A stretch of DNA of 64,000 nt, taken from assembly GCA_937944855.1 (NCBI GenBank), contig CALFAY010000010.1:124001-188000 (forward strand). Direction: 5' to 3'. Below the pieces are notes generated by a model, which was not told where the DNA came from, ran no database searches, and saw only the letters and a list, made by a program, of their open reading frames with translations. The DNA comes from an uncultured Planctomycetota bacterium (GTDB lineage: Bacteria; Planctomycetota; Planctomycetia; Gemmatales; HRBIN36). Positions 24,952 to 35,431 of this stretch are shown here, one piece after another (position 1 is the first letter of the stretch; every line of letters starts with the position of its first letter). A program made the position numbers and the translations under genes.

Positions 24952-25578
24952 ATGAAGAACATCCGCAAGCCCTTGTCCCAATGCACCGCCGGGGACCTCA
25001 TGAGCACCGACCTGGTGCTTCTCAGGGAAACCCAGACGGTGCGGGAAGCCGCACACGCGCTGCTGCGAAACCAGATCAGCGGCGCGCCCGTGGTGGATGC
25101 GGAGGGACGGTGCGTCGGCGTCCTGTCTGCTGCCGACTTCGTCCGTCTCGTCGAAAAGCAGGAGGAAGCCCGGGCCTCCCCGGCGATGCAGCCGATGACT
25201 TGCGGCTTCCAGGAAAAGCATGCCACTGCCGAGGGCCGGGAAGAAACGCTCTGCACTCTGCCTCCGGGCACTTGTGCGGTTCAACTGCAAGGCACCGGAC
25301 CTGGAGGAGAGCGCATCGTCGTTTGCTCCGAACCGCACACCGTGTTGACCGACTGGCAGATCGTTCAAGTCGAGAAGCTCCCGACCGAACTGGTCAGCCA
25401 GTACAGGACGCGGGAAGCTGTCACGGTTTCGCCGGAGGTGGACATCCGCACTCTCGCCCGACTCATGCTCGACGCCCATATCCATCGAGTCGTCGTGGTT
25501 GATGCAGACCGCAAGCCGATCGGGGTCGTGACGACTACGGACCTGCTGGCCGCACTCGCGTTCGCCGAGTCGGGCTGA
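24952..25578 (+). CDS. CBS-domain protein
   Basis: TAGDLMSTDLVLLRETQTVREAAHALLRNQISGAPVVDAEGRCVGVLSAADFVRL; second CBS RTLARLMLDAHIHRVVVVDADRKPIGVVTTTDLL. Confidence 0.88.
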   Translation: MKNIRKPLSQCTAGDLMSTDLVLLRETQTVREAAHALLRNQISGAPVVDAEGRCVGVLSAADFVRLVEKQEEARASPAMQPMTCGFQEKHATAEGREETLCTLPPGTCAVQLQGTGPGGERIVVCSEPHTVLTDWQIVQVEKLPTELVSQYRTREAVTVSPEVDIRTLARLMLDAHIHRVVVVDADRKPIGVVTTTDLLAALAFAESG

Positions 25579-25629
25579 CCGAGCAGACGCTTTGTCCCGG
25601 CCAGCCAGATTCGCTCGGGGGAAGCCGAC

Positions 25630-27216
25630 GTGGAGCTGGATCGTCTAATTACTGAGTTGGCACAACCGACGGCTTATCCCTATCCCGTAGAAGCGGTCGA
25701 AGTGCGGCAGACTCATGCTTCGGTCGTCTTTTTGGCCGGATCGTTCGCGTACAAGATCAAAAAGCCGGTCAATCTCGGCTTCTTGGATTTCAGTACGCTG
25801 GAGAAACGGCGTCAGGATTGCGAGGCGGAAGTGCGGCTGAACCGGCGACTGGCTCCGTCGGTCTATCTCGGCGTCGTTCCCGTGGCCGAGGTCCACGGTC
25901 TGCTACGCTGGGAAGCTGACGGCGAGCCGGTCGAATGGGCGGTCAAGATGCGCCGCCTTCCCGACAACGCCACCATGCAAAGCCGGTTGCTTCGCGGCGA
26001 GATCGGGCCTTTGGAAATGGAGGGCCTGGCCCGCCGCATCGCCGACTTTCACACCCAGGCAAGTGCCGGTCCGGAGATCGCCCGCTTCGGCCGCTTCGAC
26101 ATCGTTTCCCGCAACGTGCTGGAAAACTTCGAGGCGACAATGGACCACATCGGCTCGACCGTCAGCGCCGCCGTTTTCGATCGGGTCCAAGGTCTGACCG
26201 CGGAGGAACTGCACCACTGCCGCAGCCTGATCGAAAGCCGGGCAAACCGCGGCATCCCTCGGGACACGCACGGCGACCTGCATCTGGATCACGTTTACCT
26301 GTTTCCTGAACAACCTCCGCCGGACGACTTGCTGATCGTCGACTGCATCGAGTTCAACGACCGCTTTCGCTATGCCGATCCGATCGCGGACATGGCCTTT
26401 CTGCACATGGACCTGTTGGCCCACAATCGGCCTGATCTGGCCCGGGTCTTCGCCGATGCCTACTTCCGAACATCCGGCGACGAAGAGGGCCGACAGCTTT
26501 TGCGGTTGTACACCGCCTACCGAGCCGCCGTCCGAGGTAAGGTGGAGGGCATGAAGGCCCTGGAACCGGAAGTGCCGCCCGAGGAACGAGACAAGGCCCG
26601 GCTCAAGGCACAACGGCATTGGTTGCTCGCCCTGGGAGTCCTGGAAGCCCCGGCACGGCGGCCGTGTTTGATGCTCATCGGCGGGCTTCCGGGAAGCGGA
26701 AAATCGACACTGGCGCAACGGCTCGCCCAGGATGCGAATTGCGTACTGATCCGTACTGATGTCGTTCGCAAGGAATTGGCCGGGCTGGCCCCCACCGAGT
26801 CGGGCCGCACCGGCTTTGGCGAAGGCATCTACGCTCCCGAGTGGAGCGAACGGACTTATGCCGAGTGTTTGGAGAGGGCCAGACGCCTCCTCTTTGAAGG
26901 CAAACGGGTCATCGTGGACGCCGTCTTTCTCGGCGAGGGACGACGATACAAGTTTCTCAACGCCGCCAGGCAGTGGGCGGTTCCGGCTGTGTTTCTTGTG
27001 TGCGAGGCGTCGCCGCAAACCGTGTGGAGTCGCCTCGCCCTTCGCAGCGGCGATGCCTCCGATGCCGACTGGCAAGTCTATCAACGCCTGGCTCCGCAGT
27101 GGCAGCCGCCCGGCGAGGCGCTGCGGCCTCTCACTCGGGTCATCTCCACGGAAGGTCCGGTCGAAGACGCGGTACAGCAAGCCCTCGCCTTTTTGCGTAC
27201 AATGGATGTGCAATGA
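25630..27216 (+). CDS. Bifunctional aminoglycoside phosphotransferase-like / AAA kinase protein
   Basis: RDTHGDLHLDHVYLF (kinase-like HGDLHxxH) plus LMLIGGLPGSGKSTLAQRLA P-loop; GTG start. Confidence 0.8.
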   Translation: MELDRLITELAQPTAYPYPVEAVEVRQTHASVVFLAGSFAYKIKKPVNLGFLDFSTLEKRRQDCEAEVRLNRRLAPSVYLGVVPVAEVHGLLRWEADGEPVEWAVKMRRLPDNATMQSRLLRGEIGPLEMEGLARRIADFHTQASAGPEIARFGRFDIVSRNVLENFEATMDHIGSTVSAAVFDRVQGLTAEELHHCRSLIESRANRGIPRDTHGDLHLDHVYLFPEQPPPDDLLIVDCIEFNDRFRYADPIADMAFLHMDLLAHNRPDLARVFADAYFRTSGDEEGRQLLRLYTAYRAAVRGKVEGMKALEPEVPPEERDKARLKAQRHWLLALGVLEAPARRPCLMLIGGLPGSGKSTLAQRLAQDANCVLIRTDVVRKELAGLAPTESGRTGFGEGIYAPEWSERTYAECLERARRLLFEGKRVIVDAVFLGEGRRYKFLNAARQWAVPAVFLVCEASPQTVWSRLALRSGDASDADWQVYQRLAPQWQPPGEALRPLTRVISTEGPVEDAVQQALAFLRTMDVQ

Positions 27217-27351
27217 CTCGCGGCATCTCGGGACGACGGGCGAATCGGGATCGCAGACCGACCAGCACCCGGTTCGGCCTGTCCCCCTTTGCCATTTCCT
27301 TGAATTCTCTGCATGGGCCGGGTCACCGGTCCGGAAAGGTTTCGTACAAAC

Positions 27352-28293
27352 ATGGCTGAAACGCTTCAGCTTAAACATCCGTGGTTTGTGGCCGTCTGGC
27401 CGGGCATGGGTCAGGTTGCCATCAACGCCGGCGTCTATCTGCTCGCCAAGCTCGGCATGACGCTGTTCGCCGAACTGGAAGCCAGTGGACTTTTCGACCT
27501 GGATCAGGTCGAGGTCAAAGGCGGCATCATTCAACCGGGCCGCCGTCCCCGCAACCGGATGTTCCTCTGGAAGGATCCGCAGCAGCGGCATGACCTAGTG
27601 GTCTTCGTCGGTGAAGCTCAACCGCCCATCGGCAAGTACGCCTTCTGCCGCCAACTCATTGCTCACGCCCGGGAACTGGGGGTCGAGCGGGTGTTCACGT
27701 TCGCCGCTATGGCCACGCAAATGCACCCGGAACAGCGTTCCCGCGTCTTCGGGGCCGCCACCGATCAGGCCGGGCTGGACGAACTCAAACGCTTGGAACT
27801 GCAAATCCTGGAAGACGGACAAATCGGCGGTCTCAACGGCGTTCTGCTGGGGGTCGCGGCGGAGATGAGTATGCGCGGGTCGTGTCTGCTCGGGGAGATG
27901 CCGCACATCTTCGCCCAGCTTCCCTTCCCCAAGGCTTCTCTGGCCATTCTCGAAGTCTTTTCCACCATCATCGGCATGGAACTCGATCTGACCGACCTGG
28001 CCGAACAGGCTAAAACCTCCGAGGAGCAGCTGGGTCAGCTCCTCGCTCAGGTTGAACGGGCGTACCAACAGCAGTTTGGCGGCTCGGAATCCGAAGAGGA
28101 AGAATTCAAGCTGGAACCTGTGGTCGAAAACGATCAAATCCGACCGGAAGACCGACAACGGATCGAAAGCCTGTTTGAAGAGGCGGCCCGCGACCGCAGC
28201 AAAGCCTTCGATCTCAAACGGGAACTCGACCGGCTGGGACTGTTCAAGGAATACGAGGACCGCTTCCTCGACCTGTTCAAAAAGCCGCAATAG
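27352..28293 (+). CDS. PAC2-family protein
   Basis: HPWFVAVWPGMGQVAINAGVYLLAKLGMTLFAELEAS; LLGEMPHIFAQLPFPKASLAILEVFSTIIGMELDLTDL. Confidence 0.75.
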   Translation: MAETLQLKHPWFVAVWPGMGQVAINAGVYLLAKLGMTLFAELEASGLFDLDQVEVKGGIIQPGRRPRNRMFLWKDPQQRHDLVVFVGEAQPPIGKYAFCRQLIAHARELGVERVFTFAAMATQMHPEQRSRVFGAATDQAGLDELKRLELQILEDGQIGGLNGVLLGVAAEMSMRGSCLLGEMPHIFAQLPFPKASLAILEVFSTIIGMELDLTDLAEQAKTSEEQLGQLLAQVERAYQQQFGGSESEEEEFKLEPVVENDQIRPEDRQRIESLFEEAARDRSKAFDLKRELDRLGLFKEYEDRFLDLFKKPQ

Positions 28294-28442
28294 ATCGAGA
28301 GGCCCTGGCAAGACTTTGTCCAAAACGGCCAAGCCCTGTCCGTTCCCCTGTCAGTTTGGCATTTCAAGACCCTCTCAGCATAGCCCTTCGAGTGACAAGT
28401 GTGGCGGCTTGTCGGCCCGAGAAACGGCAGGTCGCAGGGATC

Positions 28443-28466
28443 GCACGGGGTGTGCAGATACGCACA
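28443..28466. promoter_or_regulatory. Palindromic enhancer-like site, copy 1 (GCACGGGGTGTGCAGATACGCACA)
   Basis: TGTGC-N6-GCACA palindrome, 19/24 identical to 35084-35107; ~110 bp upstream of a sigma-54-type promoter. Confidence 0.6.
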
Positions 28467-28575
28467 CAAGCTCTTTGCTGAAAAGCACCACTGGCATGGG
28501 AGCCGTCGGCAGTTTTGCTCTAAAAATTCAGGCATTTTTGCTAGTTTGCAGTTTTTGTCGGCAATCCGTGACAAC

Positions 28576-28591
28576 CGGCACGAGGCTTGCA
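28576..28591 (+). promoter_or_regulatory. Sigma-54 (RpoN) -24/-12 promoter, CGGCACGAGGCTTGCA
   Basis: GG-N10-GC; near-perfect to YTGGCACG-N4-TTGCW, upstream of uspA-like gene. Confidence 0.7.
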
Positions 28592-28734
28592 AACTTCCTT
28601 AGACAGACTGCCAAGTCGGTCAGCCGACGGGGCCAAGAGCCAGATGCGACTCGCACTGCGGCTGGTGTGTTCTGACTCGCCGGCGTCTTCACCGCAAACA
28701 GGGCAACTGGGATTCGCAAGTCGGGAGGAATGCC

Positions 28735-29190
28735 ATGTTCAGCGTGGAGCGGATCCTGTTTGCGACCGATTTTTCGGCGTCCTCCGACGACGCTTTCCAG
28801 GTAGCCCGAGCCTTGGCGCGGGATTACAAGGCACGCCTGGTGGTGTTGCACGTCGCCCCGCCGATGATCGTGGTCTTTGGCGAAGGCGTGTTGCCGCCGG
28901 AACCTACCGCGCATCCGGAAAAGCTCAGGGAGCGGTTGCGGCAAGAGTACGCCGTCGAACCGCCCGTGGAAGCCGAGTACCGCCTCGTCGAGGGGGAAGC
29001 CGCCCCTGAGATCCTGCGCATCGCCGACGAGGTCGCGGCCGATCTGATCGTCATGGGCACGCATGGCCGCAGCGGTATGTCTCGGATGTTGATGGGGAGC
29101 GTCGCCGAGGAGGTCGTCCGCAAGGCCAAATGCCCCGTGTTAACGGTAAAGTCGCAGCCTCGCCCTGCGACGATCGCCGAGGGAATCTGA
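28735..29190 (+). CDS. Universal stress protein (UspA family)
   Basis: RILFATDFSASSDDAFQVARALARDYKARLVVLHVAPP; VMGTHGRSGMSRMLMGSVAEEVVRKAKCPVLTVK. Confidence 0.93.
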   Translation: MFSVERILFATDFSASSDDAFQVARALARDYKARLVVLHVAPPMIVVFGEGVLPPEPTAHPEKLRERLRQEYAVEPPVEAEYRLVEGEAAPEILRIADEVAADLIVMGTHGRSGMSRMLMGSVAEEVVRKAKCPVLTVKSQPRPATIAEGI

Positions 29191-29217
29191 CTGTTGTCCT
29201 GACAACGAGGTGCGGTC

Positions 29218-29460
29218 GTGCAAACGGACATGGTGCGAGAGCCGGAAACCGGACGCCGATGCGTGTCCCCCTGCGACCTGGAAACCCATGTGCAAGCTCG
29301 GGTGGGCGGCCAGTTGCTGGATTTCCGCATCGTCGTGCAGGACGACGGTTTGGTCCTCCAGGGGCGGGCGCGGACCTACTACGCTAAGCAACTGGCTCAG
29401 CACGCGGTCATGGAGGCGACCGGAATGCCGATCCGAGCCAACGAAATCGAGGTGTGTTGA
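29218..29460 (+). CDS. Small BON-like domain protein
   Basis: LETHVQARVGGQLLDFRIVVQDDGLVLQGRARTYYAKQLAQHAVMEATGMPIRANEIEV. Confidence 0.55.
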   Translation: MQTDMVREPETGRRCVSPCDLETHVQARVGGQLLDFRIVVQDDGLVLQGRARTYYAKQLAQHAVMEATGMPIRANEIEVC

Positions 29461-29523
29461 AGGCCCGTGGGGCCAAAGGCCATCACGAAGCGCATTGGGA
29501 TTGTGAAGGGAAAGGAGCCTGCA

Positions 29524-29982
29524 ATGACGTCACTGATGCGCTGGGAACCGTTTCGCGAACTGCATCGGGAAATGCGGAGACTGCAACGGGAAATGGACCG
29601 GATCTTCGGCCGCTGGGGCGTCGAGCTTCCCACCGTGGGGGTGCCGTTCGCCGCGGCTTATCCTCCGGTCAATGTCTGGGAGGACGAGGAGTACGTCTAT
29701 GCCGAGGCGGAACTGCCCGGCGTGAGCATGGACAACCTGGAAATCACCGTCACCGGAACCAACCAGTTGACCATCAAAGGGGAACGCAAGCAGACGGCCC
29801 CTGAGAAAGCCGAATGGCATCGCCGGGAGCGGGCCTTCGGGGCGTTCGAGCGGCTGGTGGAACTGCCGGTCACGGTCGATCCCGCCAAGGTCGAGGCCCG
29901 CTTGGACAACGGCGTGCTCACCATCAAGATGGCCAAGACCGCCGAAGCCAAGCCCCGCAAGATCGTGGTCAAAACCGAGTGA
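29524..29982 (+). CDS. Hsp20/alpha-crystallin small heat-shock protein (1 of 3)
   Basis: MTSLMRWEPFRELHREMRRLQREMDRIF; YVYAEAELPGVSMDNLEITVTGTNQLTIKGER. Confidence 0.92.
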   Translation: MTSLMRWEPFRELHREMRRLQREMDRIFGRWGVELPTVGVPFAAAYPPVNVWEDEEYVYAEAELPGVSMDNLEITVTGTNQLTIKGERKQTAPEKAEWHRRERAFGAFERLVELPVTVDPAKVEARLDNGVLTIKMAKTAEAKPRKIVVKTE

Positions 29983-30018
29983 GACTGGTCCAGGTTCGGT
30001 GAAGGAAGGAGGTTTGCC

Positions 30019-30417
30019 GTGATGCCCAGCAATTCTCCGACACGCAAGGAAAGCAACGAGATCACTGCTCCGGAAACCACCCGGGGCGGGACCTATTACA
30101 CCCCGAGAACCGACATCTATGAGACCGAGGATGAGATCGTCCTGTCGTGCGATATGCCGGGCGTCAAGCCCCAGGACCTCGACGTCCGCTTCGAACGCGG
30201 CGAGTTGTCTCTCCACGGCAAAGTGGCTCCGCGAGGACCATCGGGAGCCTTCTTGCAACAGGAATACGGGATTGGCGATTTCTACCGCTCGTTCTCCATT
30301 CAACCGGAGATCGACGTAGAGAAGATCAGCGCTGAGTTCCGCAACGGCGTCCTCACCGTCCGCCTCCCCAAGCAGGAGCGCATCAAGCCGCGGAAGATCG
30401 CGGTCAAGGCGGGATGA
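30019..30417 (+). CDS. Hsp20/alpha-crystallin small heat-shock protein (2 of 3)
   Basis: TDIYETEDEIVLSCDMPGVKPQDLDVRFERGELSLHGK; FRNGVLTVRLPKQE. Confidence 0.92.
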   Translation: MMPSNSPTRKESNEITAPETTRGGTYYTPRTDIYETEDEIVLSCDMPGVKPQDLDVRFERGELSLHGKVAPRGPSGAFLQQEYGIGDFYRSFSIQPEIDVEKISAEFRNGVLTVRLPKQERIKPRKIAVKAG

Positions 30418-30500
30418 TCACTTCGCCGTGGAACTTCGGCAAGAACTGGGATGGCAGTCAAGGTAGATAGCACGGACGAACAACGAAAGGAGGTTCACCC

Positions 30501-31001
30501 ATGGCAAGCCTGATTCCCTGGCCGTGGCGGAAGAAGACGACAGAGCCGGGCGGCAATGGCGGAGCACTGACGACGCCAGCTCGGGACTTCCCCACGCTGA
30601 TGCATCGTCTCCAGCGCGAGTTCGACGACTTGTTCGAGCGGATGGCCCGGGAGTGGCCGGTCTTCGCCGGCGACTTCGAGAGCCGGTGGCGCTGGGGCAT
30701 GGACTTCGAAGACAAGGACGATGCCTATGTCGTGCGGGCCGAGGCCCCGGGTTTCGAGCCGAATGACTTCGACATCAGCGTCAGCGGCGACCGGCTCATC
30801 CTGCGGGCCAGCCACAAGAGCGAGGAAAAGGGCAAGGAACGGGCCTTCCGGGAGCAGGTCGAATGCTATGAATGCGTCACGCTGCCGCCCGGAGTGGACA
30901 AGGACAAGATCGAGGCCAAGTACCACAACGGCATCCTGACCCTGACCCTGCCCAAGACCAAGGAAGGGCGTGGTCGCAAGATCGCGGTCAAGAATGCCTG
31001 A
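30501..31001 (+). CDS. Hsp20/alpha-crystallin small heat-shock protein (3 of 3)
   Basis: DAYVVRAEAPGFEPNDFDISVSGDRLILRASHK; YHNGILTLTLPKTKEGRGRKIAVK. Confidence 0.92.
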   Translation: MASLIPWPWRKKTTEPGGNGGALTTPARDFPTLMHRLQREFDDLFERMAREWPVFAGDFESRWRWGMDFEDKDDAYVVRAEAPGFEPNDFDISVSGDRLILRASHKSEEKGKERAFREQVECYECVTLPPGVDKDKIEAKYHNGILTLTLPKTKEGRGRKIAVKNA

Positions 31002-31189
31002 GAGGTCCCGGGGCTGGAGTCGCCTCTCGACAAGCTGCGGTGCGTGTCCTGCTGTTTTGGTCTCCGCGGAGCAGGTCCCATCGGCGGCTTGTCGGAGGCG
31101 GCTTCGGCCCCTGTTGCTATAAGAGACACCCTTCCCAGGTTCCAGCTCGGCCCCCGGCCGGGCTATCCGCATCCGAAAGGAACGTTCCC

Positions 31190-31615
31190 ATGACCCAGAC
31201 CAGCCTGGCCCCGTTGGAAAGCAGCATCCAGACAACCAACATCTGGCTCAACGAAATCCTGGAGCGCATGGGCTGGCACGACCAGCACCGGGCCTATCAC
31301 GCCATTCGGGCCGTTCTGCACGCCCTGCGCGACCGCCTCACGGTGGACGAGACGGCCGCCCTGTCCGCCCAGCTGCCCCTGCTCATTCGCGGTATCTTTT
31401 ACGAAGGCTGGCATCCTCACGGCAAGCCGCTCAAGGAACGGCACAAGGAACAGTTTTTAGCCCATATCGCCGACGCCTTCCGCAACGATCCCGACGTCGA
31501 TCCGGAAAAAGTCACCCGGGTAGTTTTTCAGGTCATGGCCAAGCACATTACCAAAGGTGAGGTGGAAGGCATCAAACGCTGCCTGCCAGCGGAAATCCGT
31601 TCCCTGTGGGAGTGA
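31190..31615 (+). CDS. DUF2267-like protein
   Basis: TTNIWLNEILERMGWHDQHRAYHAIRAVLHALRDRLTVDETAALSAQLPLLIRGIFYEGW. Confidence 0.85.
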   Translation: MTQTSLAPLESSIQTTNIWLNEILERMGWHDQHRAYHAIRAVLHALRDRLTVDETAALSAQLPLLIRGIFYEGWHPHGKPLKERHKEQFLAHIADAFRNDPDVDPEKVTRVVFQVMAKHITKGEVEGIKRCLPAEIRSLWE

Positions 31616-31648
31616 CACAGCCGTGGCATTTTCGAGGGAGGAAGGACC

Positions 31649-31936
31649 ATGACCGCGGAAGAACGCAAAGATCAGACCGAGTCCCGTTCACCGACCAGCC
31701 CGGACGCCGGCCAAGGCGCTCCCGCCCTGCCTCCTGGTCAGCCTCCCGGCAGCGGTCCCTATGCGGAAGCGGTCGGCCGCGTGGACGTCACGGGCATCGT
31801 TCATGAAGGCGTCCATGTCGATCCGCTCATCACCGAGGGCCACGTCGGCTACGAGGAGAGCGGCGAATCCGAGATCATTCCGGCCCAGCGCCTTGCCGAC
31901 AAGCCGCCCGCGCCCGATAAGGGTAAGAACGGCTGA
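31649..31936 (+). CDS. Small hypothetical protein
   Basis: Co-directional with stress genes; PYAEAVGRVDVTGIVHEGVHVDPLITEGHVGYEESGESEIIPAQRL. Confidence 0.5.
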   Translation: MTAEERKDQTESRSPTSPDAGQGAPALPPGQPPGSGPYAEAVGRVDVTGIVHEGVHVDPLITEGHVGYEESGESEIIPAQRLADKPPAPDKGKNG

Positions 31937-32202
31937 TGCGGTGCCGGAACGCCCCTTGTCTCCGCCCCGGACCGATGGCCGCCGAGGATGAATCCATGAA
32001 GGTTGACGAACTCGCTGCCGTCGTGGACGAGTTGATCGAGGTTCTGCAATACCAGGCTGACATCCTGGAGCGGCTCGTGGCCCACGTCGAACAAGCCACC
32101 ATCCACCTTCCCGAAGACCGGGAAATCTCGGTCGTCCGCTCGTCGTTGAGCGGATTGAAGGTGCGGATGAAGAAACTGAGGGGCGAGTCGGCCACCGGCT
32201 AG
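31936..32202 (+). CDS. Small coiled-coil-like hypothetical protein (start may be 31996)
   Basis: MKVDELAAVVDELIEVLQYQADILERLVAHVEQA; 1-nt overlap with upstream ORF. Confidence 0.5.
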   Translation: MRCRNAPCLRPGPMAAEDESMKVDELAAVVDELIEVLQYQADILERLVAHVEQATIHLPEDREISVVRSSLSGLKVRMKKLRGESATG

Positions 32203-32241
32203 AATGCCGATTCTGAACGCCGTTCGCGGACCCAGCCTCAG

Positions 32242-32295
32242 CCCGCAGCGTGAGCAAGGCTGGCATTGCCAGGCGGACCGTGCTCACGCTGCGGG
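32242..32295. repeat. Perfect 15-bp inverted repeat (CCCGCAGCGTGAGCA / TGCTCACGCTGCGGG) with nested hairpin, REP-like
   Basis: Arms 32242-32256 and 32281-32295; inner CTGGC-ATT-GCCAG; between convergent genes. Confidence 0.85.
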
Positions 32296-32309
32296 TGAGA
32301 ATCTGCTGG

Positions 32310-33704
32310 TCATTTCTGGGAGCCGGAGGACGGTGCCGGCGATGGGGCATCTTCCAAGCCGTACTTGGCGATGAGCCGATACAAAGCCCGCCGACTGATG
32401 CCCAACAAGCGGGCCGCCTGGAGCTTGTTCCCGCGAGCCTGGGCCAGGGCGGCGGCCACGGTGCGCTTCTCCAGGTCGGCGAGGTTGAACGTGCCCATCC
32501 CCGCGGCCGACCGGCTGCCCGGAGAACGCACCGCCTCTGGCAAGTCATTGAGCGTGATGAGGTGATTCTCGGCAAGAATCTGGGCACGTTCCAGAACGTT
32601 GGCCAGTTCTCGCACATTGCCCGGCCAGTCGTAGCGGACCAGGGCCTCCAGGGCATCCGGATGGACGCGGAAGCGTACCGGCCCAATCTGCCGCGTGCTC
32701 AGGAAGTGCTCCACGATCTCGGGTATGTCCTCCCGGCGTTCTCGCAGCGGCGGCATCTCGATGCACACGACGTTGAGCCGATAGAACAGGTCTTCCCGGA
32801 ACCTTCCGGCTTTCTGCTCCTCCTCCAGCGGTTTGTTGGTGGCGACGAGAATGCGGACGTTGGCACGGTATTCCCGGACCCCTCCGACGCGGCGGAAGTG
32901 GCCGTCCTCCAGAACCCGCAGCAGCTTGGCTTGCACGGCGGGAGACATCTCGGCCACTTCGTCGATGAAGAGCGATCCGCCCTCGGCCACCTCGAACAAA
33001 CCGGGCTTGGTCTGCACCGCGCCGGTGAATGCTCCTTTCTCGTGGCCGAACAACTCACTTTCCAGCAGCGTTTCCTGCAAGGCAGCACAGTTGATCGTGA
33101 CCAATGGCTTGTCGCGGCGGGGACTGTTGTAATGGACGGCGCGCGCGGCCAGTTCCTTGCCGGTGCCGCTGGCGCCGCGGATCAGCACGGTGGCGTCGGT
33201 CGGGGCCACCTTCTCGATCAACTGCATGACCCGCTTCATGGCCGGGCTGGAGCCGATCAGCCGATAGCGCGGCGATTCGAACGTCAGCCGTTCGACGTAG
33301 TGCCGCAGCCGCACGTTCTCCGTCCGCAGCCGCCGGGTTTCCAAGGCCCGTTCCAGGATAGGCAGCAGGTTGCGCAGCTCGAACGGCTTGAGGACGTAAT
33401 CGAACGCTCCCAGACGCATCGCCTCGACAGCCGTGGGGATGCTGCCCTGACCCGTCATGATGATGCCGACCAGGCCCGGATCCAGTTCCAGCGCCGCACG
33501 CAGTGTTTGAAGGCCGTCCATGCCCGGCATCATCAAATCGCACAGCAGCAGGTCGAAATGTTCCTTTCCGAGGAGCTTCAACCCCTCGGGTCCGCTGGTG
33601 GCTCCGACGGCCGCGAAGCCCCGTTCGCCGAGCGATTCGCACAAGGCCTGGGTCAGTTCCGCCTCGTCGTCCACGATCAGTAAGCGGCCCCGCGGTTCCG
33701 ACAT
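32310..33704 (-). CDS. Sigma-54-dependent NtrC-family response regulator (REC-AAA+-Fis HTH)
   Basis: LLIVDDEAELTQALCESL; GASGTGKELAARAVHYNSPR; ELFGHEKGAFTGAV (GAFTGA); NKLQAARLLGISRRALYRLIAKYGL. Confidence 0.96.
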   Translation of the reverse strand: MSEPRGRLLIVDDEAELTQALCESLGERGFAAVGATSGPEGLKLLGKEHFDLLLCDLMMPGMDGLQTLRAALELDPGLVGIIMTGQGSIPTAVEAMRLGAFDYVLKPFELRNLLPILERALETRRLRTENVRLRHYVERLTFESPRYRLIGSSPAMKRVMQLIEKVAPTDATVLIRGASGTGKELAARAVHYNSPRRDKPLVTINCAALQETLLESELFGHEKGAFTGAVQTKPGLFEVAEGGSLFIDEVAEMSPAVQAKLLRVLEDGHFRRVGGVREYRANVRILVATNKPLEEEQKAGRFREDLFYRLNVVCIEMPPLRERREDIPEIVEHFLSTRQIGPVRFRVHPDALEALVRYDWPGNVRELANVLERAQILAENHLITLNDLPEAVRSPGSRSAAGMGTFNLADLEKRTVAAALAQARGNKLQAARLLGISRRALYRLIAKYGLEDAPSPAPSSGSQK

Positions 33705-33708
33705 CGCC

Positions 33709-34956
33709 TCAATCTCCCGTCCTCTGTGCTCTCACGCACTCGGCCTCGGCATCGGCCTGACGAAGCGGCAGCACGACCGTAACCGTCGTGCCCCGATCTA
33801 CCATGCTCCGCAACGTGATCTTGCCTCGATGTTCCTCGACGATCCGGCGACAGATCGGTAAACCCAGTCCAGTTCCCTGGCTTTGTCCCTTCGTGGTGAA
33901 GAACGGGTCGAAGACCTGGTCCAGATGCTCGGGAGGAATGCCCACGCCGGAATCGCTCACTTCGATGGCCACCGCCTCACAGTCATCTGGAAGGACCGTC
34001 GGCCGGGTCCGCAACACCAGCCGCCCTCCGTGAGGCATGGCATCGGCGGCGTTGGTCAGCAGGTTGAGGAAGACCTGTTGCAGTTTTTGAAGGTCGCACT
34101 GGATCGGCGGCAGCGCGGCATCCAGTTCCCAGACCACTTCGATACCGCGTTTGTGCAGCAAATGCCGCACGAGTTCGACGATGTGCTCCAACTCCCGGTT
34201 GACGTGGACCGTCACGACCCGATCCCGGCCCCGGCGGCAGAACTGGAGCAGTTCGCTGACCAGCTTGCTCATCCGCCGCGTTTCCTGCTGCACGATCTCC
34301 AGCGGACGCCGATTCGGATCGTTCTCGGACAACCGCTCGAGCACCGTTTCCAGCCGCAGCAGGTTGGTTGCCAGCGGGTTGTTGAGTTCGTGGGCGATGC
34401 TGGCCGCCGTCTCCCCGACGCTCGCCAGTTTCGCCGACTGCCAAAGCTGCTGCGTGAGGATGCGAATCTCCTGGTTCTTCTCCCGCAGCTCGGTCACAAG
34501 CCGCTGAAGCTCCTCGTGGCTGCGACGCAGCTCCGCCTCGGCTTGTTTGCGTTGCGTGATGTCGCGGATGATGCCGACAAACAGCCGCTGCCCGTCCACA
34601 CGGGCTTCCGCCACCGACAGTTCCACCGGAAAGATGCTGCCGTCCCGCCGCTGAGCCACGGTCTCCCGGCCGATCCCGATGATGTGTGGCTCTCCCGTCG
34701 CCAGGTAGCGAGCGATGTAGCTGTCATGCTCCTCACGGTACGGGGACGGCATCAGGATGCCGACGTTGCGACCGATGACCTCCTCAGCCCGATAGCCGAA
34801 CATCCGCTCGGCAGCGGGATTGAAGGTCTGAATCAAGCCCCGTTCGTCGATGCTGACGATGCCGTCTACGGCAGCGGTTAGAAGGGCCTGCCATCGGGCG
34901 GCGCTGGTCTGCTCCTCGGTGTAGCGAGCCGCTGTGCTCTCCGCCTTGCCCGCCAT
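33709..34956 (-). CDS. PAS-domain sensor histidine kinase
   Basis: PAS AAVDGIVSIDERGLIQTFNPAAERMFGYRAEEVIGRNV; ASIAHELNNPLATNLLRLETVL; HATPase DSGVGIPPEHLDQVFDPFFTTKGQSQGTGLGLPICRRIVEEH. Confidence 0.95.
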   Translation of the reverse strand: MAGKAESTAARYTEEQTSAARWQALLTAAVDGIVSIDERGLIQTFNPAAERMFGYRAEEVIGRNVGILMPSPYREEHDSYIARYLATGEPHIIGIGRETVAQRRDGSIFPVELSVAEARVDGQRLFVGIIRDITQRKQAEAELRRSHEELQRLVTELREKNQEIRILTQQLWQSAKLASVGETAASIAHELNNPLATNLLRLETVLERLSENDPNRRPLEIVQQETRRMSKLVSELLQFCRRGRDRVVTVHVNRELEHIVELVRHLLHKRGIEVVWELDAALPPIQCDLQKLQQVFLNLLTNAADAMPHGGRLVLRTRPTVLPDDCEAVAIEVSDSGVGIPPEHLDQVFDPFFTTKGQSQGTGLGLPICRRIVEEHRGKITLRSMVDRGTTVTVVLPLRQADAEAECVRAQRTGD

Positions 34957-35083
34957 CGTCTCCCCTTCCCGCGCTTGGGCCGACCCCTTCATCCCACGGG
35001 ATCAGTCCCCGACCCGCGGAATCCGTTTTACCCCCTCAATCGTGCTTATTGTAACGAGGGAGCGAACAAGCTGCATCCGATCC

Positions 35084-35107
35084 GCACGCCTTGTGCAGTT
35101 CCGCACA
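35084..35107. promoter_or_regulatory. Palindromic enhancer-like site, copy 2 (GCACGCCTTGTGCAGTTCCGCACA)
   Basis: TGTGC-N6-GCACA; 19/24 identical to 28443-28466; in divergent HK / zinc-ribbon intergenic region. Confidence 0.6.
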
Positions 35108-35169
35108 GCCAGGCGGGTTGTTGACCAAAAACTCCCGTCTTTTTCTGCACGGAGCCGCATCTCGCAAGA

Positions 35170-35185
35170 GGGTACGCCTTTTGCT
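35170..35185 (+). promoter_or_regulatory. Sigma-54 -24/-12 promoter, GGGTACGCCTTTTGCT
   Basis: GG-N10-GC with good match to TGGCACG-N4-TTGCW, upstream of zinc-ribbon ORF at 35216. Confidence 0.6.
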
Positions 35186-35215: not shown

Positions 35216-35431
35216 ATGAAGCGCCTGTGTGCTTGGTGTGGAAGAGAACTGGACCAAGTCCAGCCGCGGGACCAACAGGACCAGACGCACGGATTGTGTC
35301 CGTCCTGTCGGCGGCAATTCTTCTCGCCGGCACCCCCGGAAGACCGCCCGCACCGTGCCGAAGACGTCCACGACGAAGCCTCGGATCCCCCGGATTCCTC
35401 CGGGGATGGAAGGCGCCCCGGCGCTTCTTGA
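35216..35431 (+). CDS. Small zinc-ribbon-like protein (CxxC...CxxC)
   Basis: MKRLCAWCGRELDQVQPRDQQDQTHGLCPSCRRQFF. Confidence 0.6.
   Translation: MKRLCAWCGRELDQVQPRDQQDQTHGLCPSCRRQFFSPAPPEDRPHRAEDVHDEASDPPDSSGDGRRPGAS

Follow-up and report, generated by a model that had tools for sequence, protein, structure and literature searches.

A 64,000-nucleotide stretch of a Gemmatales genome (contig CALFAY010000010.1, positions 124,001 to 188,000; hereafter the window), part of a 4 Mb assembly of 63 contigs (G000; 94% complete), probably encodes a two-component sigma-54 regulon that responds to oxygen, operates like the NmpR system of Myxococcus and is wired here to a FixL-like kinase. Two TGTGC-N6-GCACA dyads, each upstream of a sigma-54 type -24/-12 promoter, flank the adjacent genes of an NtrC-type response regulator (RR) and a PAS kinase. 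In the proposed mechanism, the kinase would sense oxygen through a FixL-type heme PAS domain and, when oxygen falls, phosphorylate the regulator, dimers of which would bind the dyads and a weaker dyad about two turns upstream. The bound dimers would then assemble into an AAA+ ring that drives open-complex formation by the sigma-54 polymerase at the promoters 62 and 109 bp downstream, inducing a Usp/Hsp20/DUF2267 protection operon and a small zinc-ribbon protein. The signal would most likely be low oxygen or, alternatively, a heme ligand.

Dyads, promoters and their conservation

The proposed regulatory core consists of the following features, for which G006 denotes a congeneric genome.

28443..28447, + strand: GCACG, probably the right half of a degenerate upstream dyad whose left half is GTCGC (28431-28435), suggested by conservation in G006
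28451..28466, + strand: enhancer dyad TGTGC-N6-GCACA, probable RR binding site, from sequence; motif also found around orthologs
28576..28591, + strand: sigma-54 type -24/-12 promoter CGGCACGAGGCTTGCA of the usp-hsp20 operon; identical 16-mer in G006 (L037:4492)
32310..33704, - strand: NtrC-type RR, proposed activator, with receiver domain (REC), sigma-54 AAA+ domain with GAFTGA, and Fis-type helix-turn-helix (HTH); domain search, HTH alignment, tree
33709..34992, - strand: PAS-HisKA-HATPase kinase, FixL-type heme PAS; domain search, FixL match (E 2e-35), pocket residues
35072..35088, + strand: TGCAT-N7-GCACG, a probable degenerate dyad 19.5 bp upstream of the main one; TGCATCCG-N-TCCGCACG kept in G006
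35092..35107, + strand: enhancer dyad TGTGC-N6-GCACA, from sequence and G006 comparison
35170..35185, + strand: sigma-54 type -24/-12 promoter GGGTACGCCTTTTGCT; 14/16 bases kept in G006

The dyads lie within two 24-mers, GCACGGGGTGTGCAGATACGCACA (28443-28466) and GCACGCCTTGTGCAGTTCCGCACA (35084-35107), which agree at 19/24 positions. Both promoters have the form GG-N10-GC and match 11/12 (CGGCACGAGGCTTGCA) and 10/12 (GGGTACGCCTTTTGCT) of the specified bases of TGGCACG-N4-TTGCW. All of these elements were found where an earlier note on this DNA had placed them, and the gaps between 24-mer and promoter, which it had put at about 110 and 63 bp, measure 109 and 62 bp. The GCACG that opens each 24-mer could form the right half of a second, weaker dyad, whose centre would lie approximately 20 bp, or two turns, upstream. 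The window RR contains all parts of an NtrC-family activator (receiver, AAA+ domain with GAFTGA and Fis-type HTH), and rpoN is encoded in the same genome.

G006 shares the gene order of the window, comprising an APH/AAA-type gene, the Hsp20 operon, the regulator and kinase genes and the small zinc-ribbon gene, and retains both promoters, one dyad intact and the other with a single mismatch. The distances from dyad centre to promoter (117.5 and 70.5 bp) are identical in the two genomes, and site plus promoter are identical at 35/40 positions per locus, compared with ~51% in the remaining aligned intergenic DNA (binomial p ~1e-6 each). G006 also retains the GCACG that begins each 24-mer, and TGCATCCGNTCCGCACG is conserved at the second promoter. 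The earlier note's proposal presupposed that site and promoters persist in relatives, as they do here.

The motif near regulator orthologs

Orthologs of the window RR, 58-74% identical, passed the E cut-off in 54/102 Gemmatales genomes. When the DNA upstream of sigma-54-like promoters in 52 ortholog loci was searched for inverted repeats and words, with no motif assumed, the top de novo result was GTGTGC-N7-GCACAC, with CGCACAC upstream of 31 promoters versus 2 downstream. This is the motif of the window, usually one base wider; the N6 form occurs in the window, G006 and G005. Searches limited to N6 missed most relatives, and the N7 form emerged from the unbiased search. With both spacers and at most one mismatch allowed, TGTGC-N6/7-GCACA was present 40-140 bp from the promoter at 35/129 promoters upstream versus 2/129 downstream in Gemmatales loci. 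The same test on loci collected with a different query, protoglobin kinases, whose matches were almost only planctomycetes, gave 10/104 versus 0/104. Furthermore, N7 composite sites were found in 19 of the 54 genomes having the RR and in 2 of the 48 lacking it (Fisher p 1.3e-4). Because relatedness among the genomes inflates pooled statistics, the tests with one value per genus and with a different query are those to trust.

Dyad centres lie at preferred distances of approximately 60, 71, 82, 93, 105 and 115 bp from the promoter, one helical turn apart, and this phasing is significant over all sites (Rayleigh p ~1e-6) and with one value per genus (p 0.014). Tandem second dyads are mostly 20-22, 29-34 or 40-44 bp apart, close to two, three or four whole turns, and in several regions the same dyads serve two divergent promoters. 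This layout, with sites grouped on a single helical face ahead of -24/-12 promoters, is the one required by an enhancer-binding protein that oligomerises. The earlier note had inferred that the window regulator acts at the dyads; conservation of site and promoter, recurrence at ortholog loci, phasing, tandem spacing and co-occurrence all support this as the probable mode of action.

In two genera, a single dyad lies between divergent sigma-54 promoters, at ~71 and 102-105 bp from them (L146:11774-11978 and L134:556-763).

Sensor kinases, regulator phylogeny and target genes

The best PDB match of the window kinase PAS domain is FixL (E 2e-35, ~49% identical). The proximal His and distal Arg that characterize FixL-type PAS domains are present, and six of seven heme-pocket equivalents are kept (His200, Arg206, His214, Ile215, Arg220 and Leu236), the seventh being a conservative change of Ile238 to Val; the domain is predicted to bind heme. 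Eight other ortholog loci encode a FixL-like PAS at similar identity, with incomplete pocket residues in some. In G005 and G001, which belong to the window's own family, the regulator ortholog adjoins a protoglobin kinase. The protoglobin domain of kinases linked to this regulator clade resembles a solved globin-coupled kinase (5ohe). A domain search identified a protoglobin kinase, a double receiver, a receiver-kinase and an NtrC-type regulator together at L134, and several other Gemmatales loci show this same order by sequence similarity. In G005, the 3' end of the protoglobin kinase gene also contains a weaker dyad and a sigma-54-like promoter (L039:7345) directed towards the regulator and a lone receiver gene, possibly an internal autoregulated promoter.

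In the phylogenetic tree, the window RR and the protoglobin-kinase-linked RRs form a clade (support 100/97) apart from other NtrC-type proteins. Protoglobin-linked RRs are deep and widespread in this clade, and most FixL-linked RRs group among Gemmataceae. As the window RR is placed among these Gemmataceae members, its copy seems to derive from the Gemmataceae side, through either transfer or differential loss.

Dyad-bearing promoters in relatives precede genes for Usp, CBS, DksA/TraR-type, CsrA and DUF2007 proteins, cytochrome c', a NapC/NirT (NrfH-like) cytochrome, a NuoF-like protein, hybrid cluster protein (Hcp), phosphoketolase and the kinases themselves, including protoglobin kinases. 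In G005, such a promoter precedes a fused CcoN-CcoO (cbb3 oxidase) with FixG. This target list is mainly a low-oxygen one. Because a FixL-like kinase is encoded in the window and protoglobin kinases and respiratory or fermentative targets occur in relatives, low oxygen appears a more likely stimulus than general stress. The "stress regulon" of the earlier note is supported in its wiring of dyad, sigma-54 promoter and RR, with the signal more likely being low oxygen.

Further loci in relatives were recorded in the course of the analysis. A dyad and promoter precede a cytochrome c'-like gene in G008 (L064:3398-4842), and a similar radical-SAM-type gene lies nearby both there and in G018 (L174). 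In G059 (L144:10650, L168), a dyad-bearing promoter opposite the regulator gene faces a hydrophobic open reading frame (ORF) of 54 amino acids followed by an SRP54-like gene. Two close dyads in G056 (L148/L160; C5:753159-753360) occupy a divergent intergenic region with a PQQ-repeat-like secreted protein on one side.

The same regulator, dyads and sigma-54 promoters could instead respond to redox, heat, envelope or metal stress in a manner similar to ZraSR. Chaperones and Usp as window targets would suit such a signal, the kinase core also resembles ZraS, and a published survey of sigma-54 classes planctomycete regulators of this COG as ZraR (PMC12316311). Moreover, many ortholog loci have PAS kinases that are not of the FixL type. 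We nevertheless regard a non-oxygen signal as rather improbable, as the FixL-type pocket, the protoglobin kinases beside several orthologs and the respiratory and fermentative targets in relatives indicate oxygen. Several points weigh against the proposed oxygen-responsive regulon: a FixL-type pocket recognised from sequence similarity, the presence at several ortholog loci of generic PAS kinases that lack a clear link to oxygen, the lack of a perfect dyad at most ortholog loci at the stringency used, the lack of a respiratory gene in the window operon (Hsp20, DUF2267), and the lack of a dyad or fitting promoter at the cbb3 operon of the window's own genome.

Other possible readers of the dyads

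The CRP consensus, TGTGA-N6-TCACA, is a single base per half-site removed from TGTGC-N6-GCACA, and proteins of the CRP/FNR type are frequent regulators of low-oxygen genes. The dyads might thus be sites of a CRP/FNR-family dimer that modulates these promoters, with the neighbouring regulator being incidental. This is very unlikely, given that N6/N7 switching around orthologs is not expected to be tolerated by a CRP-family dimer, that TGTGA-N6-TCACA was upstream of 0/129 promoters, and that the tandem phased arrays at sigma-54 promoters are those expected of an enhancer-binding protein, as is co-occurrence with the RR. The CRP dyad, the FNR dyad and one permuted dyad gave counts of 0-1. The CRP and FNR dyads were unenriched in Gemmatales loci, and so was the Myxococcus NmpR site, searched for as GCGCA-N5-TGCGC (1 upstream, 1 downstream).

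Binding by another NtrC-type activator, of which at least ten related ones are encoded in the genome, is slightly less probable still: TGTGC-N6/7-GCACA was upstream of 0/14 sigma-54 promoters around paralogous activators, and the dyad tracks the RR clade in synteny (including G005 and G001) and across genomes.

Within the window, dyads with at most one mismatch are unremarkable in number (3 versus 2.3 expected, a count reached by 35/100 shuffles). As one-mismatch dyads are not significant alone, the argument depends on conservation and on the setting of the sites. Statements about the whole genome are based on pattern searches. Perfect TGTGC-N6-GCACA occurs 6 times in the 4 Mb genome, versus 2 for the reversed control; two of these are the window sites, and the other four have no sigma-54-like promoter nearby. 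A composite search for the dyad core with a promoter at a fitting distance returned the two window sites and three other matches (C21, C25 and C1), all in sequence that looks coding, and 0 for the reversed control. At the stringency used, no other dyad/sigma-54 pair with an intergenic promoter was found in the genome. The earlier note had asked for a motif scan of the genome, in which the perfect dyad proved not to be widespread. Its description of the regulon as self-contained holds for the window's genome at this stringency; in relatives, the regulon is dispersed. Chance resemblance is strongly disfavoured: one-mismatch dyads are common, but conservation, phasing and the upstream/downstream asymmetry stand against it.

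Genes between and around the sites

The remaining genes of the region are as follows.

28735..29190, + strand: universal stress protein (Usp; PF00582), domain search E 2.7e-37
29218..29460, + strand: BON-like small protein, weak match (E 0.003, below the Pfam cut-off)
29524..29982, + strand: Hsp20 small heat-shock protein 1, domain search
30019..30417, + strand: Hsp20 small heat-shock protein 2, domain search
30501..31001, + strand: Hsp20 small heat-shock protein 3, domain search
31190..31615, + strand: DUF2267 protein, domain search E 7e-36
31649..31936, + strand: small ORF, 95 aa, 75% conserved in G006
31996..32202, + strand: small ORF, 68 aa, 98% conserved in G006
35216..35431, + strand: zinc-ribbon-like protein, 71 aa, CxxC...CxxC, N-terminal half conserved in G006, no family above cut-off

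The domain search agrees with the gene content given in the earlier note, the BON assignment being weak. Neither a sigma-54 nor a sigma-70 consensus was found upstream of the window kinase that would point to autoregulation of the kinase-regulator operon. Upstream of the Usp/Hsp20 operon, positions 24952-28293 contain a two-CBS-domain gene, an APH/AAA-type gene and a PAC2-family gene, a combination that often accompanies Usp in dormancy regulons; no dyad/sigma-54 pair serving these genes was found at the stringency used. The sole protoglobin of the window's genome is a stand-alone protein encoded elsewhere, adjoining a MarR-like gene (L268; C38:164685-165203); it has no kinase domain or dyad and is kept in G006.

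Comparison with known systems

NmpRSTU of Myxococcus xanthus is reported to act on sigma-54 promoters under oxygen limitation and to control Usp, CBS and cbb3 genes, its regulator NmpR binds GCGC-N7-GCGC, and planctomycete homologs of NmpSTU were already noted in the Myxococcus work (PMC11841059, PMC6211767). As in NmpRSTU, an NtrC-like RR would end a heme-linked kinase pathway and act from two-fold sites, usually tandem, upstream of sigma-54 promoters, and the regulon in relatives includes Usp, CBS, cbb3 oxidase and its own signalling genes. The protoglobin kinase, double receiver, receiver-kinase and RR of Gemmatales relatives match NmpU, NmpT, NmpS and NmpR in architecture. The dyad agrees in geometry (GTGC-N7-GCAC against GCGC-N7-GCGC) and differs by one base per half-site (GTGC-N6/7-GCAC here, with N6 in the window). 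In contrast to NmpRSTU, the window lacks NmpU, NmpT and NmpS, its RR has a single FixL-like PAS kinase as direct partner, and its targets are a Hsp20/Usp/DUF2267 operon. Since the NmpRSTU site sequence and the NmpU, NmpT and NmpS proteins are absent from the window, the system is considered NmpR-like, probably working in the manner published for NmpR, rather than counted as a member of that family.

The sensor PAS domain and its heme-pocket residues are shared with FixL-FixJ of rhizobia, whereas the output regulator of the window is of NtrC type with a sigma-54 activation domain and not of FixJ type. The outputs of the DosR dormancy regulon of Mycobacterium tuberculosis comprise Usp, an Hsp20-family chaperone, CBS and an APH/AAA protein, a guild also seen in or near the window operon; DosR, however, is no sigma-54 activator, and its regulator and site are unrelated. 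ZraSR shares the NtrC-type RR, stress targets and kinase-core similarity. However, ZraS senses in the periplasm, and the window kinase carries a FixL-like PAS with no zinc link seen. No described planctomycete FixL-NtrC or NmpR-like regulon was found in the open literature, the search being thin on subscription journals.

Implications for planctomycete oxygen responses

Control of genes by low oxygen in planctomycetes is little described in the literature searched. The analysis supplies a regulator clade, a predicted binding motif, a promoter architecture and a target list that are open to direct testing. As a tentative generalization, one NtrC-type activator family with a TGTGC-N6/7-GCACA dyad may be a main low-oxygen sigma-54 switch of planctomycetes, and evolution may have swapped its input between protoglobin phosphorelays and FixL-type heme-PAS kinases. 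In the window's genus, where the copy apparently came from the Gemmataceae side, the regulon may have shrunk to a small protective island. Two unrelated types of heme sensor, FixL-like PAS and protoglobin, appear to feed a single lineage of sigma-54 activators, and the logic of Myxococcus NmpR appears to extend to another phylum with a changed site.

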